From: Rathayibacter iranicus NCPPB 2253 = VKM Ac-1602
Lineage (GTDB): Bacteria > Actinomycetota > Actinomycetes > Actinomycetales > Microbacteriaceae
Direction of reading: 5' to 3'
DNA length: 64,000 bases
Assembly: GCF_003149025.1 (NCBI RefSeq)
Contig: NZ_QGDV01000008.1
Location: forward strand, 62,001 to 126,000
The translations under genes were made by a program, and so were the position numbers. Position 1 is the stretch's first letter; every line of letters begins with the position of its first letter. Positions 11,660 to 29,175 of this stretch are shown here, piece after piece. The notes beneath the pieces are model-generated. The model worked only from the letters and a program-made list of their open reading frames with translations. It was not told the origin of the DNA and did no database searches.

Positions 11660-11996
11660 TGGTCGGTTGACATACGATGACCTGCCCCGTGTTGCCGAGT
11701 TGATCCTGGCGGATGACCGCGTTGCTGAGTTCTACCGAGAGCACTTCGGTGCCGTCGTCGTTGACGAATTTCAGGATCTGACGCCGCCGCAGCTGCGCAT
11801 CGTCAACAGGATCGGATACAGACGCACGACCTTCGCTGGTGACCTGGCACAGGGTATCTACGGTTTCACCGGTGCAAAGCCGATCGAGGTGCACAGGCAT
11901 ATTTCAGAAGAATGCACGGAGGCGGTGACATTCGCCGAGCCGCATCGTTACTGGTCGAAGTGCTACCCGCAGAATGGGGGTACCGGCTCGCCGTAG
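11660..11996 (+). pseudogene. UvrD/Rep-type helicase fragment
   Basis: About 95 residues of a superfamily 1 helicase remain. They include motif II (VVVDEFQDLTPPQLRI) and motif III-like text (TTFAGDLAQGIYGFTGAKPIEV), then VTFAEPHR near motif IV. After that the sequence becomes unrelated and stops at 11996. The N-terminal ATP-binding region (Walker A) and the entire C-terminal half are absent. The upstream boundary coincides exactly with the end of the left repeat arm at 11659, so the gene was cut there before or during integration. Not functional. Confidence 0.75.
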
Positions 11997-12102
11997 AGAC
12001 GGACGTTATGTGAACGGCGCTTCTCAAGATTCAGCGTGGGCCTCCCGTCCCGTACAGTGATACTGATCGCACGGACTGCCGTACATCGGCGAGCATCTAT
12101 GG

Positions 12103-15100
12103 TTACCCTTCCAGCACTGTGGCCATCGCCTCCGCCAGGACTTCGACGTGCGGGGATTCGTGGAGCGTGAAGTGCGCACCTGGTATTCGATGCACATCAA
12201 CGCCTTTGAGTGCCACTCGATCCCACCCGAGTTCGGGGTTAGTGAACCGTGTGAACTCAGGGTCGCCGGTATGTAAGAGGCTGATTCGACCCGGATACTC
12301 CTCGATCACGTAGTTCGTAGCAGCGCTTTTGTTCCTCCAACCAACTCGCAGCATGGGTGCGAGGACTTGAGTGAAAAACCGCGAAGCCAATCGTGGATGC
12401 CGAACAAGAATCCATCCCATGTTCCTCCCTTGCCACTGAGGCTGGAAGCTCTTGAATGCCTCTCGAAGAATGCTGCCAAAACGCTTGGCCTGTACTCTCA
12501 GTGGAATCTCGTCCAAGAATCGATCCACTGAATCAGTTGCCTGGTCAATGATGATCAAACGCTCGACGTCCTCGCCCTCCTTGTCCAGCTGCTGCGCCAT
12601 TTCTAGGGCAATCAGGCTTCCAAGTGACCATCCGCCAATGTAATACGGCCCGCTTGGTTGTACCCGTTTCATCTCTGAGATGTACAAAGACGCCATCTCG
12701 TTGATCGTCCGGAGGGGATGTTCGCCGGCTGAGAATCCGCGTGCCTGTATTGCATAGAAGGGGCGTGAAGGTTTCATCATTCGGGCGAGTTCGGCATAGG
12801 GGTAAACCAATCCGAAAAGAGGGTGAACCCCGAAGAAGGGGGTCTTGGCTCCTTGCGTTTGGAGCGGAACTATCAAATTGGATTGGAGACTTGTGACCCC
12901 ACGTATCTTCGAATCGATGTGTTCGGCGAGTGAGGCGACGGTTGGGTGAGACATCAGGATAGTGACCTGGAGCTGGATACCGAAGTCTCGTTCAACTGAT
13001 GAGATGGCCAGGGCGGCTGACAGTGAAGTACCACCGAGCTCGAAGAAGTTCTCATCGACATGTACTGATTCGCGATCCAACACTTCTTGCCAAATACGTT
13101 GTACCTTGATCTCTGTTTGCCCCTCAGATCCGCGTCGACTCACGTGAGTTGAGGTCGCGAGGTGACTTCCTTCCCCACCGGCGGACAGCCAAACAACGTC
13201 CGAATCTATGCCGAACGGATCTTGGGGTTTGAGTCGTTGACCTTCTTCAAATTTGGCGTCCGACCGAACTACAAGCCGCGCTCCGGCTTGAGGGTCGTTC
13301 CTCAGGAGTCGTGAAACATCAGGACGCTGGGGATTTAGACCAGTCCAAAGCTGAACGTCGTTAAGACCCGCTACGCGCGTCAATGCATCTAGCGCGTCAC
13401 TGGTTTGCATTGGCACATACCCACGCCTTTCCATTAGCGCTTGGACGGCGGACTCTCTACTGATCCCTACGTCGCGCCATATTCCCCAGCTAATACAGGT
13501 GCTTCTTATGCCGGATGAACGCTCTGCGTCGCTGAGAGACTCGACGAAGTGGTTGGCGACAGCGTATAGACCAGTGCCTGCCCCATGAAGCAATGTCACT
13601 GCCGACGAGGCGTGCACGATCTGCAGATCGGGCCTGCTCGTCACAATTCGATGGAGGTTCCATGTCCCCACGAGCTTCGTTGACAATACTCGTTGAGCTG
13701 ACTTCAAGTCTGATTCTTGGACAGTCAGAGACTCATAGCTTCCCGCGAGGTTGATTATGCCATCGAGGGTTGCTCCGGTGTCAGACTCGTACAAGTTGAT
13801 GGCGTTGATTAATGCGTCGTAGTCGGTGATGTCGACACTCCGGTATGTGATGTTTCCCACTCGCATCATCTCGTCAAGGACGCCTGGTTCCAGTTCTTCG
13901 GGCTTTCGCCGCCCTACTGCAAGCACAGAGCATTCGAATTCGGTGGTCAACCGTGTAACTATGTGGCGGCCAATACCTCCCATACCGCCCGCGACAAGAT
14001 AGGTCCCTCCCTGCTTCAGGCCGTTCGGGCTGTTCTCAGGGGGCAGCTCGATTAATTCGAGCCCCGGAACCATACTCTTACCTTGCTTCAGCACGATTTC
14101 TTCGTCCGATGGGTCAGCGAGAATTATGCGAGCAACGTCGTCGGCGTCGGAATCGACTTCGCGCGATTCGGCGATGTCGATATGTCTGTAGGTGAGGCCG
14201 GGGTGCTCCGCACTCAATGTATCGGCAAGAGCCAGAATCGATGACCGTTCGTACGCAGTCTCTGTCTCTCCAATGGGCTGGATGTCACTCGAGATAGTCC
14301 ATACATCTAGTCCTGAGAGATCGCTATGCCAATTTTTAACTAGGCGGTTGATACTCCCGAAACCGAGCTCGTACTCTCGCCATAACCGATTCACGTCAGA
14401 ATCGATGGGCGTCCTCTCCCCATAAGCCCAGCAGTGGACAACGCGTACGGCAGTGCCGAGTCGTCGCTGGATGTGCGCGCACAGGCGTCTAAACGACGAA
14501 TCTTGTGTGGGGTCCATGATGATCGTGGATTCGTCGATCATCTCAAAGTCTCCTCCCGTTCGAACCAGGATGCAGTTGGCCGCGCCAATCAGTTCCGCGA
14601 GTGCAGACCCCAACCCGGCGGCGTCTGCCATAACAACAGTGGGAACCTCGAGGGCTTCCGAATTGCTCGGAAGGTACCGTCGGCGGTGCCAGTTTCGGAT
14701 AAAGCATGATGGACCGTTTGCACCGCTTGAAACTAAAGCGATTCCTTGTTCGGCCAATTCGCTTGCAAACCCGCCGCTGGCGAGCTTTTCCGCAAGATCG
14801 CCTCTCTGGATCTTGCCGATCGCTGTTTTCGGTATTTGGTCATGTTTGACCGCTATGACGGCGGAGGGATAGACGCTCATACGTTGAGCAAGCTCGCGGC
14901 GGATTTCTCGTTTCACGCGGTGACGTGATTTCTCGGTCTCGCTTTCCACGTAGAGCAACGCGACTTGCTCAGACCCACCATGCTTGGTGGCCACGGCCGC
15001 AGTGTAGGAGGGTGCAACACCTTCGACTGACTCCGCGACCGATTCAACCTCCTGACAGTAGACATTGAGTCCGTTGACGATGATGACATCCTTTTCACGT

Positions 15101-16842
15101 CCAGTGATCGTGATTTCGCCATCACGAATGAACGCAAGATCGCCGGTACGGAACCATCCGTCCTCGGTGAAAGAGTCCCTATTTGCGGAGGCGTTGTCGA
15201 AGTACCCTTTCGTCACAACGGTCCCGTGCACTTGGAGCCGTCCGACTTCGCCCTCAGCGACCAGTAGGCCGGATTCATTGATGATTCGCGCGGAGAGATC
15301 GGAGATCGGCCGTCCGATGGAAACGGGTCGATGTGAACTGTCCTGCGGCTCGAGTACCCCATAGGTCACGGCGGAGCAGGTCTCTGACATTCCCCAAGCG
15401 GGACGCATGACGCGCTCTGAGGCGCCGTATGAGTGCAGGAGTCGTGCAAAGTCCGAGGCCGAACTGCGAACGATGGCTTCACCGGCGTTCACGACAACCC
15501 TCAGCCTTCGGAGGTCCCAGTTGCGCTTATCGGCCCGGTGATGGGCACTGGTCACCAAGGAACTCGCAAAGTTTGGCGCCCAGGTAATGCTCACATCGAA
15601 CCGGTCGATCCAATTCAACCAGAGTAGTGGGTCTTTCAAGATCGGGTCAGGCCGACTGTGAAACTGATCTGCTCCTAGCAGCAAATCACGGAGATGAAAC
15701 ATGACAATACCGCCCACATGATCGAGCGGGAACCAGTTCAGCGAGACGTCGTCTCCGGTGAGCTCGAGCGATGCGATCGCGGATCTGGCTTGCGCAAGCA
15801 GTGCCTTGTGGCTCTGCATCACGACCTTGGGCTTTCCGGTGCTCCCAGAGGTCAGGAGCATTACCGCGGTGTCCTCGGGGTCCGGGCTAACGAGGATTCC
15901 GGTTTCTCCTGAGCTTTGTAAGTCATTCATCGAAAGTGCGCGAGTGGAGGAGTCGAGAACATCCGCGTAAAGGCGAGCGTGCTGGTCGTCGGAAATCACA
16001 GCGAGTGCCCGGAGCGATTCTTGGGCGCTCAACAGTCGGCGTATCGCAGGATCATCAGGCACCAGTTCCACTGGCGGATTGACGGGAACCGGGATCGCGC
16101 CTCCAAGAATGCATCCCCAGAATGCGACGAAGAATGACTGTGGAGCCTCACAGGCGACAACGACGCGATCTCCAGGCTTGATGTCCATTCGTTGAAGAGC
16201 GCCGAGCGCAGACCGCGCTGCGCCCAGCAGGCTCTTATAGGAAGTGGTATGGAGGGCGCCTGACCTGTCGATGGATGCGCACACACCTTGTGGATTCGAG
16301 GCCGCGGTGCGGAGGAGAGTGTCGACGAGGGTTGTCGCTGCACCGCTTGGAACATCCGTGGGCTCGGCGCTTATAATCGCAGGCGCCGCCTCCGCCGAGG
16401 ATCGTAGCCGAAAGGTACCTTCACCACGCTCTGCTCGGAGTGGTCGGGCATGGTGCTCGGCCGTGCCCGACTCAATCGTGACGGCCCATTCGACGTCCTG
16501 CGTCGACTCCAAGCCTGACGCCAACTGCTGGGACATCGCATCATCGACTATTGGAATCTGGCTGAGCCTGTTCAGGTCGATTTCGCCGTCATGCGTTAGA
16601 GGTATTGAAGTCACCCTCATCCAGTAGTCGATTGTGGTAAAGGTATCCTTCGATTCGCCCCCATCATCTGGTGGCCAGTGGCTGCTGGTCGATGGATCTG
16701 TGACCAGATATGCGACGCGTTTTGTTTCGCCAGCAGAGTCGACGCGTGCGGTAACCGCCGCGTCGTAGATGCCGGGGATCTTGCGCAGCGCCCGGGCCAT
16801 TCGGTCACTTGATTCGTCAGACCTGAGATTCTGGATTCTCAT
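12103..16842 (-). CDS. NRPS/PKS-like megaenzyme: adenylation - ketoreductase - carrier - thioesterase
   Basis: A 1579-residue protein. Residues 1-150 resemble the C-terminal subdomain of an adenylating enzyme (AAVTARVDSAGETKRVAYLVTD). Residues ~165-690 form an acyl/aryl-adenylation domain: TSGSTGKPK at 331-339, NWFPLDHVGG at 369-378, GMSET at 484-488, YFDN/FRTGDL at 547-569, and Lys677 in KTAIGKIQR. A linker follows, then a PKS-type ketoreductase (LVAGGMGGIG at 949-958, catalytic Ser1080 and Tyr1093). Next is a carrier domain (GGTSL, Ser1273) and a type I thioesterase (GGWSLG, Ser1406; His1557). No condensation or ketosynthase domain is present. It could activate a keto acid or fatty acid, reduce it on the carrier and release it; the substrate is unknown. 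It is the last gene of the minus-strand group. Confidence 0.85.
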   Translation of the reverse strand: MRIQNLRSDESSDRMARALRKIPGIYDAAVTARVDSAGETKRVAYLVTDPSTSSHWPPDDGGESKDTFTTIDYWMRVTSIPLTHDGEIDLNRLSQIPIVDDAMSQQLASGLESTQDVEWAVTIESGTAEHHARPLRAERGEGTFRLRSSAEAAPAIISAEPTDVPSGAATTLVDTLLRTAASNPQGVCASIDRSGALHTTSYKSLLGAARSALGALQRMDIKPGDRVVVACEAPQSFFVAFWGCILGGAIPVPVNPPVELVPDDPAIRRLLSAQESLRALAVISDDQHARLYADVLDSSTRALSMNDLQSSGETGILVSPDPEDTAVMLLTSGSTGKPKVVMQSHKALLAQARSAIASLELTGDDVSLNWFPLDHVGGIVMFHLRDLLLGADQFHSRPDPILKDPLLWLNWIDRFDVSITWAPNFASSLVTSAHHRADKRNWDLRRLRVVVNAGEAIVRSSASDFARLLHSYGASERVMRPAWGMSETCSAVTYGVLEPQDSSHRPVSIGRPISDLSARIINESGLLVAEGEVGRLQVHGTVVTKGYFDNASANRDSFTEDGWFRTGDLAFIRDGEITITGREKDVIIVNGLNVYCQEVESVAESVEGVAPSYTAAVATKHGGSEQVALLYVESETEKSRHRVKREIRRELAQRMSVYPSAVIAVKHDQIPKTAIGKIQRGDLAEKLASGGFASELAEQGIALVSSGANGPSCFIRNWHRRRYLPSNSEALEVPTVVMADAAGLGSALAELIGAANCILVRTGGDFEMIDESTIIMDPTQDSSFRRLCAHIQRRLGTAVRVVHCWAYGERTPIDSDVNRLWREYELGFGSINRLVKNWHSDLSGLDVWTISSDIQPIGETETAYERSSILALADTLSAEHPGLTYRHIDIAESREVDSDADDVARIILADPSDEEIVLKQGKSMVPGLELIELPPENSPNGLKQGGTYLVAGGMGGIGRHIVTRLTTEFECSVLAVGRRKPEELEPGVLDEMMRVGNITYRSVDITDYDALINAINLYESDTGATLDGIINLAGSYESLTVQESDLKSAQRVLSTKLVGTWNLHRIVTSRPDLQIVHASSAVTLLHGAGTGLYAVANHFVESLSDAERSSGIRSTCISWGIWRDVGISRESAVQALMERRGYVPMQTSDALDALTRVAGLNDVQLWTGLNPQRPDVSRLLRNDPQAGARLVVRSDAKFEEGQRLKPQDPFGIDSDVVWLSAGGEGSHLATSTHVSRRGSEGQTEIKVQRIWQEVLDRESVHVDENFFELGGTSLSAALAISSVERDFGIQLQVTILMSHPTVASLAEHIDSKIRGVTSLQSNLIVPLQTQGAKTPFFGVHPLFGLVYPYAELARMMKPSRPFYAIQARGFSAGEHPLRTINEMASLYISEMKRVQPSGPYYIGGWSLGSLIALEMAQQLDKEGEDVERLIIIDQATDSVDRFLDEIPLRVQAKRFGSILREAFKSFQPQWQGRNMGWILVRHPRLASRFFTQVLAPMLRVGWRNKSAATNYVIEEYPGRISLLHTGDPEFTRFTNPELGWDRVALKGVDVHRIPGAHFTLHESPHVEVLAEAMATVLEG

Positions 16843-17009
16843 TGACGTGCCCTCCTAGTAAGTCAGAGTGAATGACAATGCGTTGCCAGCACCGAAGAGT
16901 GTGTGGCGCCGACTCGTGCATGATGCCAGTGATGCTCGGCGTTCTGGTTATGCGTCGCTCTTGGAGCACGAGTCATCGACGAATTGTCGGCATCGGTATC
17001 GAAGCTCAG

Positions 17010-17678
17010 TTAGCGCTTGTTGGGTCCCTTACGCCATTCAACGAACTCGGTCGGTGCTGCTGCGCCGACAGCGCCGCGGATCTTGCGTCGAGTGATGTCG
17101 TCCATGTTCACACCAGTAATAGCTTCAGCAATTTGAAGCATTGGCAGATCGGACGCACTGTCGCTATATGCTCTTGTGACTCCTGAAGAGAGTCGTCTTT
17201 CTTTCAGCATCGATACCTTGTGCTCGCCGTAGCAGTGTTCTGCCGATACGAGGCCACCGAATCGACGCTCTAAGGTCGACCCAACGACTGTTATACGCGA
17301 GTCCAATGTGCGGCAGATGCGCTCTGCAATCTGCTGAGCGGAAGCGGTTACTACGATGACCTCGTCCCCTTGGTCCAGGTGAGCCTTGACGGCTGTCACC
17401 GCTTCTGGGAAAAGCCGCGCCGTGGGATCGAGAGAGTCGAGATAGCGGTCAACCGCATCCTCAAACGACCCCCGTGTGATACTGACCGTGCCAATCCACA
17501 GGAGCAACGACGAGGTTCTGGTCCTCTGCTTGCTGGCGATGAGAACCGCGATAGCAGGAATCATCAGGAGTGCGAGTAAAAGGCGAGTCGGATTGGTGCC
17601 GATTCGACGCAACAGGAATCTTGTTACGGTGTCATGATCGATGATTGTCTTGTCTAGATCAAAGAGAATGCGTGACAT
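17010..17678 (-). CDS. HAD-IB family phosphatase
   Basis: A 222-residue HAD hydrolase of the phosphoserine-phosphatase-like IB group. Motif I is DLDKT at 7-11 (nucleophile Asp7), motif II is VVTAS at about 109-113, and motif III/IV comprises Lys154 and DSASD at 173-177. A hydrophobic stretch at about residues 33-49 suggests membrane association. HAD-IB enzymes are often paired with PlsC-type acyltransferases and dephosphorylate small phosphoesters or lipid phosphates. Its ATG overlaps the end of the DUF2306 gene by 20 nt, implying coupled translation. A gap of 167 bp separates it from the megaenzyme gene. Substrate not assigned. Confidence 0.8.
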   Translation of the reverse strand: MSRILFDLDKTIIDHDTVTRFLLRRIGTNPTRLLLALLMIPAIAVLIASKQRTRTSSLLLWIGTVSITRGSFEDAVDRYLDSLDPTARLFPEAVTAVKAHLDQGDEVIVVTASAQQIAERICRTLDSRITVVGSTLERRFGGLVSAEHCYGEHKVSMLKERRLSSGVTRAYSDSASDLPMLQIAEAITGVNMDDITRRKIRGAVGAAAPTEFVEWRKGPNKR

Positions 17679-18387
17679 TCTTCACCCGCACCTTTCGTTT
17701 TGAGGCCGCTTGTCTGCTCTGTACCCGCTTGCGGATTCCAAGCCAAACAAGTGCCAGTACTACGTTCGTGCCGGACCCCAGCCAGAAAATTGAGCCAAAA
17801 AACTCTGTAGCTTCAAGTCCAGTCGTGTTCGTGAGGACCGCCAGGTACATACGAGCGAGAGTGATACCCAGGCCGCTGGCCAACGCCAGAATCATCCACT
17901 CCTGATGTGCCTGGAAGTCTCTTTGTCTGGCACGAACCCAACCCATGAGGCAGAACACAATGAGGGTGATGCCGAAGAGCATGGAGGGGATTACTTCGTC
18001 CCAACCGGAGTAATTCAGAGCGACCGACAGGTACGTTCCGGTTATTGAGCTACCGATTGCGGTAACGATGAAGAGCTGCCCGAGCCAACGATGAAAGTGC
18101 CTGAGATGCTTGCGCCTCAGTCTTGGATGCAGTTGGCCGAGGCCCACGACGACGAACACGAGACTAGGAAGCAGATGGAGGGTGGTCTCGACCTTGCCTT
18201 CTCCGTGAAGCCTTACCGCCTGTATGTCGGCGTAGTGGTCTCCGGCAACAGAGCGACTCATTTCGACGACCACTTCTGCGGGGAGGACGAGGTTGATCAT
18301 GACCATGAGTGCGGCGAGGACTCCCTCCAGTAGGAGCACCGTCACACCGAGTCTCTGCCAGCGTTTCAGGAAGACGTCGTAGTTCAT
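17659..18387 (-). CDS. DUF2306-family multipass membrane protein
   Basis: A 242-residue membrane protein with about seven hydrophobic spans. It carries the DUF2306 pattern of histidines: LHLLPSLVFVVVGLGQLHPRLRRKH, then HFHRWLGQLFIVTA, and later HQEWMILALASGLGITLAR. The family has no established function; the conserved histidines suggest haem or metal binding, which is speculative. The start overlaps the stop codon of the kinase-like gene by 4 nt, and its end overlaps the HAD gene by 20 nt, so the three are made together. This placement between a lipid kinase and a phosphatase hints at a role in membrane-lipid chemistry. Confidence 0.7.
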   Translation of the reverse strand: MNYDVFLKRWQRLGVTVLLLEGVLAALMVMINLVLPAEVVVEMSRSVAGDHYADIQAVRLHGEGKVETTLHLLPSLVFVVVGLGQLHPRLRRKHLRHFHRWLGQLFIVTAIGSSITGTYLSVALNYSGWDEVIPSMLFGITLIVFCLMGWVRARQRDFQAHQEWMILALASGLGITLARMYLAVLTNTTGLEATEFFGSIFWLGSGTNVVLALVWLGIRKRVQSRQAASKRKVRVKNVTHSL

Positions 18388-19145
18388 GCGATTAACCCCG
18401 TCATGATCAATGCTCCTCCAAGCGAAATGGTCAGGTTGTCGAACCCTCGAGGCGAAAGGGCCTCAATTGCAGCGACAGCGATACCGAATGCGAGTGAGCC
18501 GGCGATGATGACCCAAACTGGGCCCGTGCTCGCTGCGATGAAGGTCACTGCGGCAATGGCCACGGCGGAGAGCATGACCGCGGCGTTGCCGTGCAGTGAT
18601 TTTGTGTTGCTGCGCCGGAAAACTAAGTCTGGCACGCGGTACGTCGTGTTTCGTCCGAATCTCAATCCAACGGGCTCAGCCAGGCCGTCTCCGATAGCAA
18701 CAGCTAGGATCCCCGCACGGGCAGCGTCTGCCGGGAAGAAGACGAAAGCCGCGACGATGCCTAGGTTTCCTAAGATGAGCGGAAAGAAGAAAAAGAACCT
18801 CGAATACGGCACGTCTCGGTCGCGAAGCGATCCGGCGACAATTCTCTCGACGGCGGGCCATCGACTGACGGCGGACCAGCCGTAGATCACTGCGACGCCG
18901 ATTGTCGCTGCGACGATCGTGGGCGTCAGGGATGGTTCCGGGAGAAACCCGATAGTCGGGGCTGCACACACGGCGTGACCCATGTGATTGAACTTGCGAC
19001 TGTAGCCGTCCTTCCACCCCTTATGCCGCCTGAAGTAGGTCGCAATATTGCCCATCACGAGTGTACTCAAGAGCAGATATACGACGAGCGGACCCCAGGC
19101 TATGTGCCGGAATCCGTCACTGAGGGCCGCGAACAGTTCCGCCAT
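18384..19145 (-). CDS. Phytol/dolichol/diacylglycerol-kinase-like membrane protein (CTP-type lipid kinase family)
   Basis: A 253-residue polytopic protein with the SEC59/DGK1/VTE5-type pattern: RKFNHMG at 50-56, IGDGLAEPVGLRFG at 151-164, and TKSLHGNAAV at 181-190. Family members use CTP (or ATP) to phosphorylate long-chain or isoprenoid alcohols or diacylglycerol in the membrane. Substrate and donor are not readable here. It is the first gene of the minus-strand operon. AAGGA precedes the ATG, and a TTATCGGGTAA operator-like site (19157-19167) lies just upstream, overlapping the probable 5' leader. Confidence 0.75.
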   Translation of the reverse strand: MAELFAALSDGFRHIAWGPLVVYLLLSTLVMGNIATYFRRHKGWKDGYSRKFNHMGHAVCAAPTIGFLPEPSLTPTIVAATIGVAVIYGWSAVSRWPAVERIVAGSLRDRDVPYSRFFFFFPLILGNLGIVAAFVFFPADAARAGILAVAIGDGLAEPVGLRFGRNTTYRVPDLVFRRSNTKSLHGNAAVMLSAVAIAAVTFIAASTGPVWVIIAGSLAFGIAVAAIEALSPRGFDNLTISLGGALIMTGLIA

Positions 19146-19156
19146 GCATGGGTTCC

Positions 19157-19167: not shown

Positions 19168-19204
19168 AGATTGCGCGTGCGACTCGGGTTGCGTGCTCGT
19201 CAAC

Positions 19205-21437: not shown

Positions 21438-21710
21438 ATGACCGACATTAGTAAGATTCAGAGCTGGCTCGTTCAGAGAATTGCAATTTACCTTGACCGT
21501 GAGTCGGATGAGATTGACGCGGACACCCCGCTCGCAAAATACGGTCTTGACTCCGTCTACGCTCAGAGCATCGCCACCGAACTCTCTGAAAAGGTCGGCG
21601 TCAACTTCGATACCCGGGAACTCATCAAACACAACTCGGTGAACAAGATCCTTCGTCGTATCCAGGAACTCTCCGCAATCGCCCCCTCGTCTGCGGACAC
21701 GAATCAGTAG
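21438..21710 (+). CDS. Acyl carrier protein
   Basis: A 90-residue discrete carrier protein with the phosphopantetheine attachment motif YGLDSVYA (Ser39). It lies 55 nt after the acyl-AMP ligase, the usual FAAL-ACP arrangement, and must be primed by a phosphopantetheinyl transferase, presumably the one at 28280. The ATG at 21438 follows an AAGAAGAGG ribosome binding site. The longer upstream reading from 21327 is antisense-like sequence of the FAAL end. Codons are notably A/T-rich (AAG, ATT, AAA) compared with the flanks. Confidence 0.93.
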   Translation: MTDISKIQSWLVQRIAIYLDRESDEIDADTPLAKYGLDSVYAQSIATELSEKVGVNFDTRELIKHNSVNKILRRIQELSAIAPSSADTNQ

Positions 21711-21767
21711 TCGTGTCGTCATTCCCCAACTTCAGATCCCAATAGGGTCGGTCCGGAGAGGTCTCAA

Positions 21768-22916
21768 ATGCATCACGAAACGATTCTCGTCTGCCCAGGG
21801 CCCGTAGCAGTTTCTCCCACAGTGAAACGGGTTTTCGGGCAAGTTAGCACCGGACATCGCACTCCCGAGGCCAAAGCTCATCTTGCAACGGCTCGGAAGA
21901 ACCTAGTGGAGGCCTACGAGCTCTTCGGTCACGAGGCACTGCTGCTGGCAGGGTCCGGAACAAGTGCCGTCGAAGCTATCTTCTCGAGCGCAGTGCCGAC
22001 GACCGGAAAACTGCTCATTCTGGTCAACGGGCGGTTTGGCGAGCGTATGACGCACATAGCAACTGCGCTGTCCATTTCGACAGTGGCCCTGAACTTCGGC
22101 TGGAATCAACCGATCGAAGTTTCTCGCGTTCGCGCACTTATCGCAGCAGACCATGAGATCACGCATCTCGCTCTGGTTCATCATGAAACAAGCACCGGCA
22201 GGCTTAACGACCTCGACGGAGTTTTGGACGTGGCTGAAAGTCACGGTGTGAAGTCCATTGTCGACATGGTGAGTTCGTTCGGCGCTGAATCGTTGAATGG
22301 GATCCATCGGCCAACGTGGATAGCGACTTCGGCTAACAAATGCCTTGAGTCGTACCCTGGCGTCGGCATCGTCATCGCTCCGAGAACCGAATTCGAAGGT
22401 CTTTCCTCGATGGCGCGCAGCTTTACCCACAACCTATCCAGTCATTATGAGGCTCAGGTCCTCCGCGAAGAACCCCTTTTTACTCCTCCGGTTCAAGTAG
22501 TAGCGGCACTTGCTGAAGCCACCCATTGCTTAATCAAAGAAGGGGTTGCAGCCCGCGGCAAGCGGTACCTACACTCGAAAACTCGAGTCAGCGATGCTCT
22601 CGCCGAGTTCCATATTCGTCCAATCACACCAAACGAGCACTCGAGCAGCTCCGTGTCTGTATTTCGTCTTCCAGGTGTATACCAGCCAGCTCTGCTGGTT
22701 GAGGACCTACTCGCACGGAACATCGTTGCGTACGGGGCCGATTCCCGAAATCCAAATGCAATGACAATCGCCACGATGGGGCAGCTGAAATCGTCGGATA
22801 TTGATCGCGTTATTTGGTGTTTGCGTGCACTTCTAAGTGGTACTCATGCGGCCAATAAGCCGTTCCTAGACAATACGCAGTTGGCAATACATTCACGGAA
22901 AGTAAAGACCTTATGA
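21768..22916 (+). CDS. PhnW-like class V aminotransferase (2-aminoethylphosphonate-pyruvate transaminase family)
   Basis: A 382-residue PLP enzyme that resembles 2-aminoethylphosphonate:pyruvate aminotransferases throughout: ILVCPGPVAVSPTVKR at the start, LLLAGSGTSAVEAI, HLALVHHETSTGRLNDLD, IVDMVSSFGAESL (PLP-binding Asp166) and ATSANKCLES (Schiff-base Lys191). The real PhnW reaction interconverts 2-aminoethylphosphonate and phosphonoacetaldehyde. No other phosphonate gene (PEP mutase, PhnX) is visible in the island, so the amine acceptor may instead be a small aldehyde or a carrier-bound acyl aldehyde. Its stop codon overlaps the next gene's ATG by 4 nt. Confidence 0.8.
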   Translation: MHHETILVCPGPVAVSPTVKRVFGQVSTGHRTPEAKAHLATARKNLVEAYELFGHEALLLAGSGTSAVEAIFSSAVPTTGKLLILVNGRFGERMTHIATALSISTVALNFGWNQPIEVSRVRALIAADHEITHLALVHHETSTGRLNDLDGVLDVAESHGVKSIVDMVSSFGAESLNGIHRPTWIATSANKCLESYPGVGIVIAPRTEFEGLSSMARSFTHNLSSHYEAQVLREEPLFTPPVQVVAALAEATHCLIKEGVAARGKRYLHSKTRVSDALAEFHIRPITPNEHSSSSVSVFRLPGVYQPALLVEDLLARNIVAYGADSRNPNAMTIATMGQLKSSDIDRVIWCLRALLSGTHAANKPFLDNTQLAIHSRKVKTL

Positions 22917-24619
22917 TTCAAGAAGGCCTCCACGAAGCGCCATATGACGAAGTGAGAGAACTAGAGGCGCTCCTCGGAGATCCCTACTCATCCGAGAGTC
23001 AGGCATTTAGTTACGACGCCATCGTCCAACACGACGAGACAAACGCGCTCGATCAGCGTGCGCTCGAAGTGCTTCAGGACTTCGGCTTCTCGCGGCTCAC
23101 AGTCCCGGAAGCTTTCGGCGGGCTCTTCCGCAATCTTGAACAGCTCGGGTACCTGACTCGTCTGCTCGCGCGGCGCAATCCAACCCTGGCTGTCAAGTAT
23201 GGCTCGTCTTTGTTGGGCGCTAACGTCATTTGGCTTTGGGGTACGGATGAACAGCGAAGGAGAGTCGCTTCTGCGGTCGCTGGGGGAGAGTACACCGCTT
23301 TCGCCGTCTCGGAGAAGGCCCATGGAAGCGACCTTCTCGCGACAGAAACCCGAGTTTCCAATACGCCCAAGGGGATTAGTCTCACAGGCGAGAAGTGGCC
23401 CATCGGCAACGCGACGACTGCTCGGTTTATCGTCGTCTTGGCGAAGGCCCCCAATGGATTATTCGATCTTTACCTTATCGACAAGAACGACGTGCCATCC
23501 TCCTGCTATGAACATCTAGAGCAGGTGCCCACAGTAGGTTTGCGTGGCCACGATCTCAGCGGGATCAAGTTTCAGCAAGTACCACTCCGCGAGTCAGATC
23601 GGCTCGGGCGCCCCGGCGCCGGCTTGGCTATCGTCCTGAAGGCTCTCCAGATCACTAAGACCGGGATCGGGGCGATCTCCGTCGGTGTGCTTGACGCTGT
23701 GGTCGACCTCGTAACCCGATACGCGACGTCGAGGAGGCTGTACGGCTCTGACCTCTTCGCCTTGCCCTCAGTCAGGCAAAAGACCACGGCTCTTCTCGCG
23801 GACCGCATGATCTGCTCTTCATTACTGGTTCCGATTACGCGGGCACAGGTTATTGCGCCCCGGTACTTCTCGCTATGGTCATCAGCGGTCAAGGCTCTTA
23901 TCCCCACCGTTACGGATGAATCGATCCAGACTGGCTCCCAGGTTCTCGCCGCTAGAAGCTACATTAAGGGTGACTTCGCCGGAGGAGTATTTCAAAAACT
24001 GCAGCGCGATCATGCGATAGCCGCCATCTTTGAAGGCACGACGAGCGTGAATCTTCATTCCATTGCCTCGCAGCTACCAGCGCTGGAACTCACTGGAAAC
24101 GGAGCCGCCGAACTCTCCCTGCTGGATGAACTCTTCAACACATCTGAGCCTGCACCCGTATGGCAGCCAAACCCGGGCGACCTCAGATTGACAAATGAGG
24201 GCCATGATCCACTGCTCTCCAGTCTGCCGGAGACTATCGACGCCTTGGTTGCAGTTCTGATCGAAGACGTCACTGACGACAGCCAGCGCACGAGCCTGCT
24301 TCGCACTTCAGGCGAGCTCAAAGAAGCCCATGGGCGGCTTGCGGACCCGGCAACCTACGAGGATTGGTCACCGGGATCGATTGAGAGCTTTCAGCGCGCG
24401 GAGCAGTACACACTGCTGCTGGCAACGGCATGCGTATCTCACACTCAGCTCCGTAAGCTGCGCGCCGGAGGTGACGCTAAGGTTGCTGCGCAATGGACGA
24501 CGGCGATGTATCACCGTTTGAGCCAGCGACTCGAGATTTCCGCAGTATCCGGATTTCGCGCCCCAGTTTCGCTAGATGATTTGATCGATTTCAATCTTCT
24601 GAACCAGAATCCGGCCTAG
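22913..24619 (+). CDS. Acyl-CoA dehydrogenase-family flavoprotein, probably acting on acyl-ACP
   Basis: A 568-residue acyl-CoA dehydrogenase-fold protein. Seen in order: an N-terminal helical domain, FAVSEKAHGSDLLATET (flavin/substrate region), the middle domain with GLRGHDLSGIKF, RRLYGSDLFALPSVRQK, and FEGTTSVNLH with the catalytic base Glu374. The C-terminal ~190 residues extend beyond the common ~380-residue core. In FAAL-ACP clusters such enzymes introduce an alpha,beta double bond into the carrier-bound fatty acid. Here the position right after FAAL, ACP and aminotransferase supports that. FAD binding and acyl-ACP preference are inferred. Confidence 0.85.
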   Translation: MIQEGLHEAPYDEVRELEALLGDPYSSESQAFSYDAIVQHDETNALDQRALEVLQDFGFSRLTVPEAFGGLFRNLEQLGYLTRLLARRNPTLAVKYGSSLLGANVIWLWGTDEQRRRVASAVAGGEYTAFAVSEKAHGSDLLATETRVSNTPKGISLTGEKWPIGNATTARFIVVLAKAPNGLFDLYLIDKNDVPSSCYEHLEQVPTVGLRGHDLSGIKFQQVPLRESDRLGRPGAGLAIVLKALQITKTGIGAISVGVLDAVVDLVTRYATSRRLYGSDLFALPSVRQKTTALLADRMICSSLLVPITRAQVIAPRYFSLWSSAVKALIPTVTDESIQTGSQVLAARSYIKGDFAGGVFQKLQRDHAIAAIFEGTTSVNLHSIASQLPALELTGNGAAELSLLDELFNTSEPAPVWQPNPGDLRLTNEGHDPLLSSLPETIDALVAVLIEDVTDDSQRTSLLRTSGELKEAHGRLADPATYEDWSPGSIESFQRAEQYTLLLATACVSHTQLRKLRAGGDAKVAAQWTTAMYHRLSQRLEISAVSGFRAPVSLDDLIDFNLLNQNPA

Positions 24620-24631
24620 AGGGCACTAAGA

Positions 24632-25330
24632 ATGAACGCCAACGACATGACGTACCCACTGGTATCGGCGCTGAGCCGAATCATCTACAGCCCTTCAATC
24701 ATTGGCGCGGAACGCATTCCGAAAACTGGGGGTGCGCTCCTCGTCGCGAATCACCTTTCATTCGCGGAGAACATGATTATTCCTGCGGTTGCTGGCAGGG
24801 CTGTCCGCTTTATCGTCAAGTCGGAGTACTTGCAAGGAACTGGTATCGGCGGGCGGATTGCAGCATCACTGTTTCGGGCCTGGGGCAGCATTCCTATTGA
24901 ACGAGAGGGTGCTTCACACTCAATCACCGATTCCCTGAACGCCGCAACGACGGCATTGCGCGAAGGCAAGTGCATTGCAATGTATCCAGAGGGAACACGG
25001 TCACCCGATGGGCGACTCTATAAGGGGAAGGTCGGAGCGGCCAGGTTGGCTCTGGAGAGTAACGCACCCGTCATACCTATCGGCATACGCGGTACCGAGA
25101 AGATGCAGCCCATCGGACGGCGCCTCCCTCGGCGGACCCCAGTCACCCTTTCAGTAGGAATGCCCCTGTACTTCAGTAAGAACGACTACACACACACGCT
25201 CGACGACTGGAGAAAGATCACTGGGATCATCATGTCGGCCATCCAGGAGCAGTCGGGCCAGGAATACGTTGACCGGTACAAAAATGAGGCGCCCCGAGCG
25301 GCAGAGCGACGGAGTCCGAAGTATGACTAG
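24632..25330 (+). CDS. PlsC-like acyltransferase (1-acylglycerol-3-phosphate acyltransferase family)
   Basis: A 232-residue acyltransferase. Motif I reads NHLSFAE (His41 with Glu46), motif II region reads WGSIPIEREG, motif III is YPEGTRSPDG at 118-127, and motif IV is APVIPIGI. The family rule is HX4D; here the acidic residue is Glu, an unusual but conservative change. Such enzymes move a fatty acyl chain to a hydroxyl, normally of a glycerophosphate. With the lipid-kinase-like and phosphatase-like genes of the other strand, it suggests that the island product is or becomes a complex lipid. It overlaps the exporter start by 8 nt. Confidence 0.85.
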   Translation: MNANDMTYPLVSALSRIIYSPSIIGAERIPKTGGALLVANHLSFAENMIIPAVAGRAVRFIVKSEYLQGTGIGGRIAASLFRAWGSIPIEREGASHSITDSLNAATTALREGKCIAMYPEGTRSPDGRLYKGKVGAARLALESNAPVIPIGIRGTEKMQPIGRRLPRRTPVTLSVGMPLYFSKNDYTHTLDDWRKITGIIMSAIQEQSGQEYVDRYKNEAPRAAERRSPKYD

Positions 25331-26798
25331 TGACACTAACGAATCAGGTGTTACTCAACAGCAGTGGCGCAAAGGCCCTCTGCTCGTGCTCTGCTTGGGT
25401 TCCTTCATGACCCTGCTTGACGTGACAATCGTCAATGTTGCGGTACCGAGAATGCTCGCTGAGCTTCGAGTTGGACTGGAATCGGCCGGGTGGATAATTT
25501 CGCTCTACACTATTCCTCTCGCTGTGTTTGTTGCGACGTTCGGAAAACTGGGTGACGTACTCGGCAAGAGGGAATGCTACCTCGTAGGCGTGGCCCTGTT
25601 TACCTTGGCTTCTGCGGCGTGCGCACTCGCACCAAACATTGTTGTCTTGCTCGTCGCGAGAATATTTCAGGGAACAGGGGCCTCTTTGCTCTTACCTCAG
25701 ACGCTGGCAATTATCAGTACTGCCACCCCCAAAGATAAGCGAACCACCGCTTTGGGCGTTCACGGCTCGATCAGTGGAATCGCCTCCGTACTCGGTCCCC
25801 TCCTCGGCGGAGTATTGGTCGGAGTCGTCGGGTGGCGCTCCATCTTTCTTCTGAACTTGCCACTCGGCGTCATCGTGATCGTGCTCGGAATCAAGATCCT
25901 TCCCCGCACTACACAAGAGCGGGATCGTCGCCTCGATTGGGCCTCGGTTACACTTATGATCTTGGCGCTCTCAAGCGTCACATATCTCCTTCTCGAAGGA
26001 GGCGCGAGAGTTCAGAACCACCTGGCGGTTCACATCGGGATGCCCAGCGCGATAGCTGTCCTCAGCGGTGCTGCGCTCTACTACCGCCTTCGACGGACAC
26101 AAGATCGTGATCCACTCATCCCGTTCTGGATTTTCAGGAATCCTAGCTACAGACTTATGTCCCTCGTGTGGGCGTCAGTATCTGCGGCCATCGTAATCAC
26201 CTATCTCCCGCTCATGGTCTATGCCCAGACGGTACTCGGGTTGTCCTCAATGGCTGCAGGACTTCTCGTCACTCCTATGTTTGTGTGCACGGTAGTCGTT
26301 GCCGCATGTGCAGGGCGACTGGCGAAAGCATGGACAGCGCACTTCACGCTAGCCGGTGGATTGGGCCTGTTCGCACTGGGTCTAGTTGGCCTCGCAGTCA
26401 CTGCCACTGAGACAGCTTCCCCTATGCTCTTTGTGCCGAGCCTTCTCGTAGCCGGCTCAGGATTGGGTGCTACCTTCGCGACAATGCAGTCAATAGCTAT
26501 GCGTGATGTCGATCCGGGCGACTCGGGCGCTGCCTCAGGAGTGATCAACGGAATCCGTCAGCTGAGTTCCGCGCTCGGAGGTGCTGTTGTCGTCACGCTC
26601 CTGGCTGTCGGCATTCGGTTGGCCGGTCTCGATGAGAGCTTTTCAGGCTCTCCAAGTTGGCAGAGCGCGTATACTGATTCGCTGCAGTTGGTGCTCCTCG
26701 TGCCAGTTGTCTTGATCGGGCTGTGCGCGCTACTTACGTGGCGCCAGGGGGTCAGCGAGAAGAGACTGATGATCGACAACCAACATTTAGTTCGCTAG
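25323..26798 (+). CDS. DHA2-family (14-TM) MFS exporter
   Basis: A 491-residue major facilitator of the EmrB/QacA drug:H+ antiporter type with about 14 hydrophobic spans. Family motifs are LLDVTIVNVAVP (motif D1, about 31-42), GKLGDVLGKRECYLVG (motif A) and GPLLGGVLVGVVGWRSIFLLNLP (motif C, antiporter signature). It would export the island product or an antibiotic. The ATG at 25323 lies inside the end of the acyltransferase gene (8-nt overlap), which makes it part of the same operon. The reading frame open further upstream (from 25269) is the shadow of that gene. Confidence 0.9.
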   Translation: MTSDTNESGVTQQQWRKGPLLVLCLGSFMTLLDVTIVNVAVPRMLAELRVGLESAGWIISLYTIPLAVFVATFGKLGDVLGKRECYLVGVALFTLASAACALAPNIVVLLVARIFQGTGASLLLPQTLAIISTATPKDKRTTALGVHGSISGIASVLGPLLGGVLVGVVGWRSIFLLNLPLGVIVIVLGIKILPRTTQERDRRLDWASVTLMILALSSVTYLLLEGGARVQNHLAVHIGMPSAIAVLSGAALYYRLRRTQDRDPLIPFWIFRNPSYRLMSLVWASVSAAIVITYLPLMVYAQTVLGLSSMAAGLLVTPMFVCTVVVAACAGRLAKAWTAHFTLAGGLGLFALGLVGLAVTATETASPMLFVPSLLVAGSGLGATFATMQSIAMRDVDPGDSGAASGVINGIRQLSSALGGAVVVTLLAVGIRLAGLDESFSGSPSWQSAYTDSLQLVLLVPVVLIGLCALLTWRQGVSEKRLMIDNQHLVR

Positions 26799-26803
26799 TA
26801 TTC

Positions 26804-27355
26804 ATGGACGCACCTACAGAACTCACATCGTTTGCGATGGGTAGAACTTCCAGAATCATAGCGAATGGCTGGTCGTCCGACAGCTTGTTGCCGGGCGACC
26901 AGCCATTCGCGTCATTGGCTCACAACCGCGATAGACAAGCTGCGCGAATACTCTTGATGGAACTGATCGAGAGTGATGTTCGGCGGGTGAGGAGCCCTAT
27001 CGTGATCGGAACGTTGACTTGCTCTGAGGGGTGCATCTACTGCGGGGCGCCCCATGTGATCGGTCGACCTGATCTGTTTGTATCAATTAGTCACTCCTGG
27101 GGCTGGGCGGCCGCTGCGCTTTCAACACGTCCGATCGGCATTGACCTAGAGGCGCTCACCAGACGGCCTCACCCCGCAAGTGCCACACATCGCACCGCCT
27201 TCTACTCCGAGTGGACACGGAAGGAGGCACGTTGGAAGTCGCTGTCGCGGATCCTGTGTAGCAAGACCGCATGCTCCGAAACACAATCGCCGAGGATCGT
27301 TACAAGCGTCCAGAGTTCGGAGATCATTTTCAGCGTGGCACTCGTGCCCTCGTAG
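26804..27355 (+). pseudogene. Degenerate 4'-phosphopantetheinyl transferase-like gene
   Basis: A 183-residue frame 5 nt after the exporter. The N-terminal part is family-like: CIYCGAPHVIGRPDLF, then VSISHSWGWAAAALS and IGIDLEAL (Mg-binding motif). The second Mg/CoA motif, EWTRKEARWK, follows after only ~16 residues. The intact enzyme at 28280 has about 40 residues between the same motifs, so ~25 residues are missing. After the KEA motif the sequence loses similarity. No clear ribosome binding site is seen. I read it as a decayed copy, though a short variant that still folds cannot be excluded. Confidence 0.6.
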
Positions 27356-27475
27356 AACTCGAAAGTCGCCGCCGGATGTTAGGCACGAATCACTGAAATT
27401 TAGTCCTTTTTAGACCACGCAAAGGTGAAGTGGAGAGTTCGTCCACAACAGGGATGTTCCGGCAGGCGACGGATG

Positions 27476-28135
27476 TCATCCAATGGTCAAGGTTCGCCTC
27501 TCTCCCAGCATCATCGCTTCTTCAAGAATCGCGGAGATTGTCTGTTCGTCAGCAGTGATAAGAAGGGCGGGAAGCAGCGCATTCCATGCGTCGGAAACCG
27601 ACTCGGTCAGAAACTCCTCCTCCTGTCCCAGGCTCTTCAGTACGAGTTGTGCTCCGGTGTAGATTGAGACCGCAATTCTCGCGAAGTGGCTGGGCGGCAC
27701 CCGGCTCGTCACCAGTCCGTCGTCAACAGCTTGTTCGAGTAACTCCGTAAACCTCTGTATCCAGTACGTGAAGGGTTCGCGAGGAGCGACTTCAAATGAC
27801 GAAGAATCGAGTGTTAGTCGAAGTCCGGCTTTGACAGTGGGTTCCTCGAGGGCTTGCCGTGCTAATCTCAGAGTGATAGCGATCATTCGAACGATGGGGG
27901 GGGAGTTCTGCAGACTGGAATCGTCGACCGCCGTCGATCTTTCGTGTTGAAGACGAATGATTTCATGAGCAAGATGTTCTTTGGACTCAAAATGAAAGTA
28001 CAGTGAACCTTTGTTCACACCGGCCGTGCGGGCGATGTCGGCGATCCCTGCTCCGTAGCCGTGCCGTCCGAAAAGTATCGCAGCGGCATCTAGTAACTGT
28101 TCGCGGGTGGCATGCGCTCGTGCTTGCTGGACCAT
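27476..28135 (-). CDS. TetR-family regulator of the gamma-butyrolactone-receptor (ArpA/ScbR-like) type
   Basis: A 219-residue repressor-type protein. The N-terminal DNA-binding domain reads TREQLLDAAAILFGRHGYGAGIADIARTAGVNKGSLYFHFESKEHLA, with the KGSLYFHF-SKE-LA pattern characteristic of ScbR/ArpA receptors, which release DNA on binding gamma-butyrolactones. The ligand pocket is in the C-terminal half. No AfsA-type butyrolactone synthase is seen nearby. Likely targets are the palindromes at 19297 and 19656. The ATG at 28135 is preceded at 6 nt by a TACTAT -10 box, so a leaderless transcript is likely. It lies opposite the phosphopantetheinyl transferase gene. Confidence 0.8.
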   Translation of the reverse strand: MVQQARAHATREQLLDAAAILFGRHGYGAGIADIARTAGVNKGSLYFHFESKEHLAHEIIRLQHERSTAVDDSSLQNSPPIVRMIAITLRLARQALEEPTVKAGLRLTLDSSSFEVAPREPFTYWIQRFTELLEQAVDDGLVTSRVPPSHFARIAVSIYTGAQLVLKSLGQEEEFLTESVSDAWNALLPALLITADEQTISAILEEAMMLGERRTLTIG

Positions 28136-28141
28136 ACACCA

Positions 28142-28147
28142 ATAGTA
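28142..28147 (-). promoter_or_regulatory. Putative -10 box of a leaderless tetR transcript
   Basis: On the minus strand this reads TACTAT, exactly 6 nt before the ATG at 28135, with no ribosome binding site between. On the other strand a TATACT -10-like box at 28200-28205 may serve the phosphopantetheinyl transferase gene. Confidence 0.45.
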
Positions 28148-28279
28148 GGCGCTGTTCGTCGGCACCGCACCCTGAGTCGGCCACATCAATGTTCCAGCCT
28201 ATACTTGCCATCTTCTCGCATGGCGACGGCCATCGATTTTAGGGCCGAGGCGCTGGTGAAGAGCGGGTTTGAGGTGGAC

Positions 28280-29005
28280 ATGGGTATGCGTGACGGCACG
28301 AATCGGGAACATCTGCTCCCCGCCCATGAAGTCCTACTGGCGACCCGTGTTCCACTCCTGTGGGACCATACCGATCTCTTATCAGTCCAGGAGCTCGAGC
28401 GGAGCGAGAGGTTCGCATGCGAGGATGACCGTGCTCGCTTCCAAACGGGGGCAGCATTGGTCCGCCTCATGTCCTCCTCGGTCAGCGGGATCCCTCCAGC
28501 CCAGCTGATCGTAGATCGGACGTGTCCAGACTGCGGCCAGCCCCACGGTCGCCCTCGGCTCCCGATGGACCTCGGGCTCAGCCTGTCTGTAACCCACGGC
28601 GGTAGATGGGTTGCGGTAGCGTGTAGCCGTAGCCTTGTCGGAGTGGATGTGGAGCCGATTGACCCTCGAATCCTCGCATTGGAGACAAGAATCGTTTCTG
28701 AGCGGGAAGCGGGTGACTTGATTGGTCTGACGGAGCCTCAGAAGGTCAGGGCATTGACGAGGGCATGGGCGCGCAAGGAGGCAGCGACCAAATCGCTAGG
28801 TGTTGGGTTGCGAGTACCAATGCCAGAATTAGAGGTCCTCGACTCTTCACCACCGCACGTTATGGGCTCGTTTGTCCCTAGGGGCACACGGATTAGCCTT
28901 GTAGATTTCACGCTTGATCCAGTTCACTGTGCCTCAATCGCTATTGTGCACTCGGACCGCATTAGCGCGTCAAGAATCTTGATTCGTCGCTTTCCGAAAA
29001 GGTAG
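28280..29005 (+). CDS. 4'-Phosphopantetheinyl transferase (Sfp-type)
   Basis: A 241-residue Sfp-superfamily enzyme that attaches the phosphopantetheine arm of CoA to carrier-protein serines. The motifs are complete: CPDCGQPHGRPRLP, LSLSVTHGGRWVAVACS, VGVDVEPID (Mg-binding) and AWARKEAATKSLGVGLRVPM. It should activate the discrete carrier protein and the carrier domain of the megaenzyme. The ATG at 28280 (or 28286) follows a GAGGTGG site and gives normal family length. An upstream ATG at 28220 lacks a ribosome binding site. It lies opposite the TetR gene, at the right end of the island. Confidence 0.85.
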   Translation: MGMRDGTNREHLLPAHEVLLATRVPLLWDHTDLLSVQELERSERFACEDDRARFQTGAALVRLMSSSVSGIPPAQLIVDRTCPDCGQPHGRPRLPMDLGLSLSVTHGGRWVAVACSRSLVGVDVEPIDPRILALETRIVSEREAGDLIGLTEPQKVRALTRAWARKEAATKSLGVGLRVPMPELEVLDSSPPHVMGSFVPRGTRISLVDFTLDPVHCASIAIVHSDRISASRILIRRFPKR

Positions 29006-29175
29006 TCGTTTGTGCCAAGCGCTGTAACCTTCTTGCCCTTTTGGCGATCATGTGGCCTGAAGCTCTTCACGTGTTCACCTACCTGCGTGGGCAATGCAGG
29101 CGGGTTCGCAGGAAGACCGCTCGCCCGTCCCCTCGGGTCGACGGCGGAGATACGCAGCAGATGGTGGCGAGTTCG

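Follow-up and report, generated by a model that had tools for sequence, protein, structure and literature searches.

The window analysed here is a 64-kb stretch of the 3.38-Mb genome of Rathayibacter iranicus NCPPB 2253 = VKM Ac-1602 (contig NZ_QGDV01000008.1, positions 62,001 to 126,000), and it contains a 17.5-kb island of low guanine-plus-cytosine (G+C) content (11660-29174) between two housekeeping genes, cydC and an alkD-like gene (Table 1). Four genes are read leftward from a divergent region of 533 bp and encode a small membrane protein, a DUF2306 protein, a HAD phosphatase and a large multidomain enzyme (hereafter the megaenzyme). Seven genes run rightward, among them those for a fatty acyl-AMP ligase (FAAL), an acyl carrier protein (ACP), a PhnW-like pyridoxal phosphate (PLP) enzyme, an acyl-CoA dehydrogenase, a PlsC-like transferase and an MFS pump, and beyond them lie an ScbR-type gene, read leftward, and a second phosphopantetheinyl transferase (PPTase) gene. 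All the parts named in the initial annotation were present as open reading frames at the places it gave; the ScbR-type regulator and the two PPTase-like genes are additions to it. Taken together, the enzyme kinds on the island are known ones, but their combination is an orphan.

Table 1. Features of the island and its borders, in window coordinates (A, adenylation; KR, ketoreductase; TE, thioesterase)
Position	Strand	Feature	Support
10993-11659	.	Left copy of the duplicated cydC-alkD junction: cydC end and two pieces of the alkD 3' half	blastn, left against right
11592-11996	+	UvrD/REP-type helicase fragment, left island edge	PF00580, E 1.2e-12, profile positions 181-260 of 271
12103-16842	-	Megaenzyme, 1579 aa: Asub-like + A + KR + carrier + TE, probably of alpha-keto-acid depsipeptide type	Pfam AMP-binding, KR, PP-binding, Thioesterase
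17010-17678	-	HAD-IB family phosphatase	PF12710 98.6 bits (cut-off 27); TIGR01488 61.4 bits (cut-off 45)
17659-18387	-	DUF2306 membrane protein, 242 aa	PF10067 74.2 bits (cut-off 31.6)
18384-19145	-	Polytopic membrane protein, candidate GDGxA...G motif	No credible Pfam, NCBIfam or PDB match
19207-19234	.	28-bp palindrome (13/14 pairs), candidate operator, divergent intergenic region	Found once
19305-19315	+	TCGGATAATTT, first of two near-identical motifs, overlapping a promoter-like -10	
19653-19678	.	Imperfect palindrome AAATTAGTCGACCGGTCGGATAAATT, 10/13 pairs, directly 5' of the first possible FAAL start	
19679-21382	+	FAAL, GTG start at 19679 or 19694	PF00501 180.3 bits
21438-21710	+	Free-standing ACP, GLDS motif	PF00550 42.2 bits
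21768-22916	+	Class V PLP enzyme, PhnW-like	Best family match TIGR03301 PhnW-AepZ
22913-24619	+	Acyl-CoA dehydrogenase homologue, 568 aa, FAAL-associated kind	PF00441, PF02770, PF02771
24632-25330	+	PlsC/AGPAT-family acyltransferase	PF01553 74.5 bits; aligned to 5KYM
25269-26798	+	DHA2-type MFS exporter, start possibly 15 or 54 bases downstream	PF07690 187.4 bits
26804-27355	+	PPTase-like gene, apparently decayed	NF047349 25.7 bits (cut-off 225); Pfam ACPS only E 0.23
27476-28135	-	ScbR-family (gamma-butyrolactone-receptor-type) regulator	NF041196 163.4 bits (equivalog cut-off 150)
28112-29005	+	Sfp-type PPTase, true start probably downstream of 28112	PF01648 46.2 bits (cut-off 25)
29175-30071	.	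Right copy of the junction: cydC remnants, then the full alkD-like gene (29436-30071, -)	

The composition of the island differs sharply from that of its surroundings, with a G+C content per 2-kb step of 0.55-0.60 over 12001-28000 and of 0.62-0.73 elsewhere in the window (0.65 in the boundary-holding step 28001-30000), and the island genes measured had 0.52-0.59 compared with 0.71-0.74 in three flanking genes. In addition, the cydC-alkD junction is duplicated around it, so that the order across the site is cydC, two alkD 3'-half pieces, the island, cydC remnants and the full alkD-like gene. In blastn, 11199-11589 matched 29285-29675 (96.7% over 393 columns), 11585-11659 matched 29791-29864 (98.7% over 75) and 10993-11109 matched 29175-29291 (88.0% over 117), and the alkD fragment of the left copy is the second alkD match in the host genome (contig C8:73353-73613). 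The left copy ends at 11659 and the right one begins at 29175, within one base of the limits initially drawn (11660-29175); the low G+C content and the duplicated junction indicate acquisition, and the earlier view of a single island in which two operons diverge is likewise borne out.

The spacing of the cydC and alkD matches was compared across the genus: of 14 further genomes, eight (G002, G005, G006, G009, G010, G011, G013, G014) had them no more than 50 bases apart, two (G004, G007) about 1.4 kb apart and two (G003, G008) on separate contigs, and two were not comparable (G001 had no alkD match, and neither gene was matched in G012). Since the two genes adjoin in eight of the 14, the junction is probably ancestral, the island having been inserted there and having left the duplication behind, as would be expected from single-crossover integration of a circle bearing the junction. 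The island is very probably a specialised-metabolite cluster acquired by horizontal transfer. ARAGORN found no tRNA gene in the window, no Rfam model matched it at the gathering score, and the whole-island DNA gave no megablast match in plasmids or phages. To the right of the island, a 1181-residue frame with a mannose-binding lectin domain (29960-33505, PF01453) overlaps the start of the alkD-like frame, and in one sister genome cydC (G005:C1 2665362-2667021) is split into two matches, one with an internal stop.

The megaenzyme and the acyl-loading operon

The Pfam matches in the megaenzyme place the KR domain between the A and carrier domains (A 180-548, KR 946-1124, PP-binding 1246-1309), and its best solved relative is 6ULW (E 8.7e-150), followed by McyG 4R0M and 6ULX. 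Passages of PMC11253843 identify 6ULW and 6ULX as StsA, an alpha-ketoisocaproate-using A-KR-T (thiolation) initiation module listed under cereulide, and give two marks of this module, namely a hydrophobic residue, I306, at the site of the Asp to which the amino group binds, and G414-M415 at a site where a Pro is conserved in amino-acid A domains. Both marks recur in the megaenzyme as Val376 (PLDHVGG at 372) and Gly484-Met485 (GMSE at 484), the positions being assigned from our own alignment to PLDHI and FGMSE of StsA. Moreover, its N-terminal residues 13-97 resemble an Asub domain, which corresponds to the C-terminal subdomain of an A domain and is an extra feature of alpha-keto-acid depsipeptide modules (E 2.8e-6 and probability 88 in hhalign, with a profile of five rows compared with a single Asub). 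The megaenzyme is probably of this alpha-keto-acid (depsipeptide) type, turning keto acids into hydroxy acids, and therefore points to a 2-hydroxy acid. The initial annotation had proposed a lipid-type rather than a peptide product, which remains reasonable.

Consistent with that annotation, no condensation (C) domain was matched in the megaenzyme or in the 12 other island proteins scanned, nor was a ketosynthase-catalytic (KS) domain that could take the chain as in a nonribosomal peptide synthetase (NRPS) or polyketide synthase. The unusual feature of the megaenzyme is thus that it is a free-standing module with a TE yet without a C domain. It shares with the keto-acid modules StsA, NatD and presumably CrpD the Asub-like extra, an A domain without the amino-binding Asp and a KR between A and carrier, and with NatD of neoantimycin also the TE at the end. 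However, NatD, the comparable terminal module, has the order C-A-KR-T-TE and starts with a condensation domain in the part of PMC6117356 that describes it, whereas the island enzyme lacks one, is a single free-standing protein and adjoins a fatty-acid loading operon.

Among 72,556 plasmid records, at least 80% of the megaenzyme was covered at only one place, an NRPS gene of Nostoc sp. ATCC 53789 with an aspartate 1-decarboxylase, a P450 and a flavin adenine dinucleotide (FAD)-dependent oxidoreductase as neighbours; we take this strain to be the cryptophycin producer and the gene to be crpD. Elsewhere in the host genome, a second cluster on contig C16 (locus L030 576-19425) encodes a related, Pfam-scanned A-KR-T protein of 1331 residues that is 32% identical to the megaenzyme, and its neighbours read from their translations as a KS/aminotransferase/monooxygenase/C protein, an A-C protein and two ABC exporters.

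The plus operon carries genes to activate, carry, dehydrogenate and export an acyl chain, largely as first described, except that the supposed desaturase is an acyl-CoA dehydrogenase homologue. The top NCBIfam matches of the FAAL are of FAAL type, yet under their curated cut-offs, and its best solved relative is the FAAL 7R7E, aligned nearly end to end (E 1.9e-82). The nearest plasmid FAALs are 35-37% identical, and two annotated neighbourhoods of such genes comprise a FAAL, an acyl-CoA dehydrogenase and an ACP, then ketosynthase genes. When four plasmid FAAL neighbourhoods were searched (tblastn, 1e-4), the ACP and dehydrogenase were matched in three, a PPTase in two and the MFS protein in one, the megaenzyme query matched at the FAAL only, and there was no PhnW-like, PlsC-like, DUF2306, HAD, membrane-protein or ScbR match. 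Similarly, three of the four plasmid neighbourhoods opened from dehydrogenase matches (two from Streptomyces, one from Burkholderia glumae) had the dehydrogenase homologue beside a FAAL and an ACP. Such a set is familiar from rotihibin, for which a FAAL, an ACP and two dehydrogenases are proposed, in passages of PMC8552735, to load and desaturate the acyl tail. The island resembles this lipo-initiation cassette (and that of ramoplanin, cited there) in combining a FAAL, a large acyl-CoA dehydrogenase and a free ACP in one operon, but it has one dehydrogenase instead of two and adds the PLP enzyme and the PlsC-like transferase.

For the remaining products of the rightward genes, the MFS exporter reached 226.8 bits with TIGR00711, just short of the cut-off of 230.2. 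HX4D and PEGTRS are motifs of the PlsC/AGPAT family, and the PlsC-like protein has PEGTRS but HX4E where HX4D is expected. The first PPTase-like protein is shortened between GIDLE and KEA and at its C-terminus relative to two other PPTases, and the Sfp-type PPTase carries the GVDVE and KEAATK motifs.

The PhnW-like enzyme and the membrane-associated proteins

The PhnW-like enzyme scored below three curated cut-offs (TIGR03301, 271.1 bits against 360.8; for the two other PhnW-type models scored, TIGR02326 and NF010006, 206.2 against 400.8 and 205 against 296) and is 37-38% identical to three Burkholderiales relatives. The PLP lysine, Lys191, is kept in 86/86 aligned homologues, and an Arg before the TMG motif is present in 85/86 (one gap), with Thr333 at this position in the island enzyme; these homologues are not independent, since they are mostly from Burkholderiales and Nostoc and were chosen by the scan patterns. 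The Arg before the TMG motif binds the acid group of substrates, and a literature search on the substrate role of this residue in the PhnW family found no passage. Thus, the enzyme has the class V family membership and the PLP lysine in common with the PhnW/AepZ aminotransferases, and differs from them in the change of Arg to Thr at 333, in its scores and in its setting, where no phosphonate genes were found.

The search for a phosphoenolpyruvate (PEP) mutase gave nothing convincing, as the single PEP-mutase-family match of the host genome lacks the EDK motif. In our own reading of the translation, this match adjoins a citrate-synthase-like protein, which is the arrangement expected of a methylisocitrate lyase, and matches of the same family in 11 of 14 control genomes mean that the one in the host says little. 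Because the PhnW scores are low, the Arg is lost and no convincing PEP mutase was found, phosphonate chemistry is unlikely, and a 2-aminoethylphosphonate (AEP) pathway was put aside. The enzyme is PhnW-like, as noted initially, and probably not an AEP transaminase. A literature search, with most subscription papers outside its scope, found no paper that joins AEP and a FAAL, and the rotihibin paper was the only one to combine all five terms of the cluster.

In the minus operon, the HAD phosphatase reached 72.6 bits with the PgpC model TIGR01545, far short of the cut-off of 259. The DUF2306 protein belongs to the same Pfam family as PraC, which, as described in 2026, is required for the final epoxidation in pramanicin synthesis and gave DUF2306 a first role in the making of natural products (PMC12895699, in the passages on PraC). 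Both occur in a biosynthetic-cluster setting, but PraC is fungal and has 393 residues, whereas the island protein is bacterial and shorter. By analogy, the latter is a possible oxidative tailoring enzyme, and since it accompanies a dehydrogenase that would form an alkene, it may be linked to epoxidation.

At E up to 10, the polytopic membrane protein retrieved only DUF4079 from Pfam (E 0.043, below cut-off), nothing from NCBIfam and two chance matches from the PDB. We take its GDGxA...G to be the motif of lipid kinases dependent on cytidine triphosphate (VTE5/DGK1/SEC59), and the longer form GDGLAEPVGxRFGR is common to the protein and one homologue of 28% identity, itself without a Pfam or NCBIfam match. 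The membrane lipid kinase of the initial annotation thus goes back to this motif and was not upheld by the family and structure searches. Alignment-free structure prediction yielded a mean predicted local distance difference test score of 56 for the DUF2306 protein and 44 for the membrane protein, too poor for a fold search.

Regulation and the search for related islands

Among 15 genomes of the genus, the island regulator was the only ScbR match above the cut-off, and none was found in the 14 controls; its nearest plasmid homologue, from Rhodococcus ruber, is 40% identical. AfsA matches showed the same restriction, occurring in the host only (contigs C1 and C19) among the 15 genomes and in none of the controls. 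The regulator groups with the ScbR-type gamma-butyrolactone receptors by its equivalog score but has no AfsA beside it on the island, and the cluster is probably butyrolactone-controlled. On contig C19 (2621-4374), the AfsA match adjoins an ScbR-family match (96 bits, below the cut-off), a possible gamma-butyrolactone synthase-receptor pair. Contig C1 (locus L144, about 5000-14000) has a low-G+C patch of its own (0.55-0.65 per kb) with genes for an MFS protein, a PPTase, an aldo/keto reductase, a double AfsA-domain protein, two KAS III-like proteins, an FAD monooxygenase and a HAD phosphatase, and with a PadR gene just outside.

The divergent region contains candidate control elements. The palindrome at 19207-19234 is the sole 28-mer in the window with at least 13 palindromic pairs. 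A second copy of the motif at 19305 lies at 19668-19678, inside the imperfect palindrome, which is unexceptional in itself with 10/13 pairs. The two TCGGATAAWTT motifs, picked after viewing the sequence, are the only matches in the 64 kb at up to one mismatch (0.22 expected; 1/100 shuffles reached two). These motifs and palindromes may be operators or simply promoter -10 elements. A scan for ArpA half-sites with a consensus sequence gave 26 sites scattered across the window and was uninformative.

Relatives were sought in samples of 149, 396, 396, 396 and 296 genomes, the scans at 1e-50, 1e-90 and 1e-100 with the PhnW-like protein, the megaenzyme and the FAAL scoring only 2 to 4 candidates per genome. 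The PhnW-like protein was matched in 4/149 relatives at 1e-30 (the window itself and three of 27-33% identity), in no other genome of the genus (14 searched) at that E-value, and at 1e-50 not beyond its own genome (1/396 genomes of the phylum). The FAAL was likewise confined to its own genome at 1e-100 (1/296). For the membrane protein, 2/396 genomes were matched at 1e-10 (its own and one with a match of 30%), and for the megaenzyme 3/396 at 1e-90, its own and two others, of which the longer match (34%) covers residues 19-1310 but not the TE and lies in a 3063-residue frame. Neither the membrane protein nor the DUF2306 protein had a plasmid match in tblastn. Furthermore, the contigs of 84,980 species were scanned with a four-row PhnW alignment and two short patterns; the host genome was not among the best 80 loci, and in these loci (3-21 kb; tblastn, 1e-6) there was no match to the ACP, acyl-CoA dehydrogenase, PlsC-like, DUF2306, HAD, membrane, PPTase or ScbR proteins, with weak AMP-ligase matches (24-30%) in eight and an MFS match in one. 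The sampled, pattern-limited and capped nature of these scans makes a missed relative quite possible. Within the sampled searches there was no close match to a known cluster, in agreement with the initial view that the combination corresponds to no described pathway.

Proposed product, alternatives and implications

From these genes we infer the following scheme, with all its substrates, its sequence of reactions, its control and its class of product, in which the cluster makes an exported acylated lipid of the alpha-hydroxy-acid type, a tentative assignment to which we give slightly less than an even chance. In one arm, the FAAL would load a fatty acid onto the free ACP, the acyl-CoA dehydrogenase would render the chain alpha,beta-unsaturated, and the PlsC-like enzyme would shift the acyl group from the ACP to a hydroxyl. 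In the other arm, the megaenzyme would adenylate an alpha-keto acid, its KR would reduce this on the carrier to the alpha-hydroxy acid, and its TE would either release the hydroxy acid or transfer it onto an amine or an alcohol; as it lacks a condensation domain, the megaenzyme would act once and not in a chain. The hydroxyl generated in this second arm would be the most parsimonious recipient of the first arm's acyl group. The PLP enzyme, the DUF2306 protein (by oxidation or epoxidation, in analogy to PraC) and the HAD phosphatase could then tailor the product, which the MFS pump would export, and the ScbR-type regulator would switch the cluster in response to a gamma-butyrolactone-like signal, the AfsA homologues being elsewhere in the genome.

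A bolder version, a condensation-free acyl-depsi lipid route that would define a new butyrolactone-controlled lipid class, is distinctly doubtful at present. Here, a single-turn A-KR-T-TE enzyme would both make and hand over the alpha-hydroxy acyl unit, the FAAL/ACP/dehydrogenase/PlsC line would acylate it, the PhnW-derived enzyme, having lost its anion-binding Arg, would act on a carrier-bound thioester, and the bacterial DUF2306 protein would oxidise the double bond.

Several observations weigh against the acylated hydroxy-acid lipid. McyG likewise carries PLDHV and GMTE at both diagnostic positions, so that the signature is not unique and argues against an ordinary amino-acid A domain more than it proves a keto acid; McyG is listed as Phe-activating in the relevant part of PMC11253843. 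The PlsC-like enzyme departs from its family in HX4E, the first PPTase-like gene is apparently decayed, and the PhnW-like enzyme is without a defined role in the proposed pathway. The lipid-kinase identity of the membrane protein is unproven and has no HMM support, and the authors of PMC12895699, in the passages on PraC, leave open whether it is the actual catalyst. As to regulation, no AfsA gene lies on the island, and weak TetR matches to the ScbR family, below the cut-off, occur in all 15 genomes of the genus and in 13 of the 14 controls. Finally, no homologous island turned up in the sampled searches that would tie the two operons to each other, and the case for their working together therefore rests on the shared island and the shared divergent region.

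An incomplete lipo-depsipeptide cluster acting in trans is unlikely. In such a system, the acyl-loading cassette and the keto-acid module would feed a C-domain NRPS elsewhere in the genome, for example on contig C16, as might be expected from the known FAAL-dehydrogenase-ACP cassettes that adjoin NRPS genes and from the C16 A-KR-T protein, which stands beside proteins read, without a family scan, as carrying C domains. However, the megaenzyme ends in its own TE, and the C16 cluster differs in G+C content (0.57-0.65) and, by reading, has two ABC exporters of its own.

It is quite unlikely that the island makes or remodels a membrane lipid instead of a secreted metabolite, although a PlsC-family transferase, a HAD-IB phosphatase weakly similar to PgpC, the DUF2306 protein and the unassigned membrane protein are all present. 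The kinase call that would strengthen this alternative has no support, and the FAAL, PPTase, keto-acid NRPS-type module, DHA2 pump and ScbR regulator are components that typically go with secreted specialised metabolites. An improbable alternative is that the island is the relic of a once larger cluster that is being lost and yields no product any more, as the apparently decayed PPTase-like gene, the HX4E of the PlsC-like protein, the Arg loss in the PhnW-like enzyme, the UvrD fragment at the edge and direct repeats able to delete the island might indicate. Against such decay, the ten principal genes, which encode the enzymes, membrane proteins and transporter, have open frames, the catalytic motifs sought were found in the megaenzyme, the HAD phosphatase, the FAAL, the ACP and the acyl-CoA dehydrogenase, and the second PPTase keeps its motifs. 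A phosphonolipid pathway, in which the PhnW-like enzyme would make an AEP head group, is hardly credible, since the match to PhnW-AepZ, although the best of its family matches, is under the cut-off, the conserved Arg is lost and the only PEP-mutase-family match lacks EDK and adjoins an apparent citrate-synthase-like protein.

If the acylated hydroxy-acid lipid is indeed the product, the island would be a compact case of depsipeptide-type keto-acid chemistry meeting fatty-acyl loading without a condensation domain. It would also contain an enzyme of PhnW descent that no longer serves phosphonate chemistry, and a DUF2306 protein from a bacterium in a pathway where epoxidation is testable. Moreover, the flanking repeats offer a natural means of obtaining a comparison strain that lacks the island.

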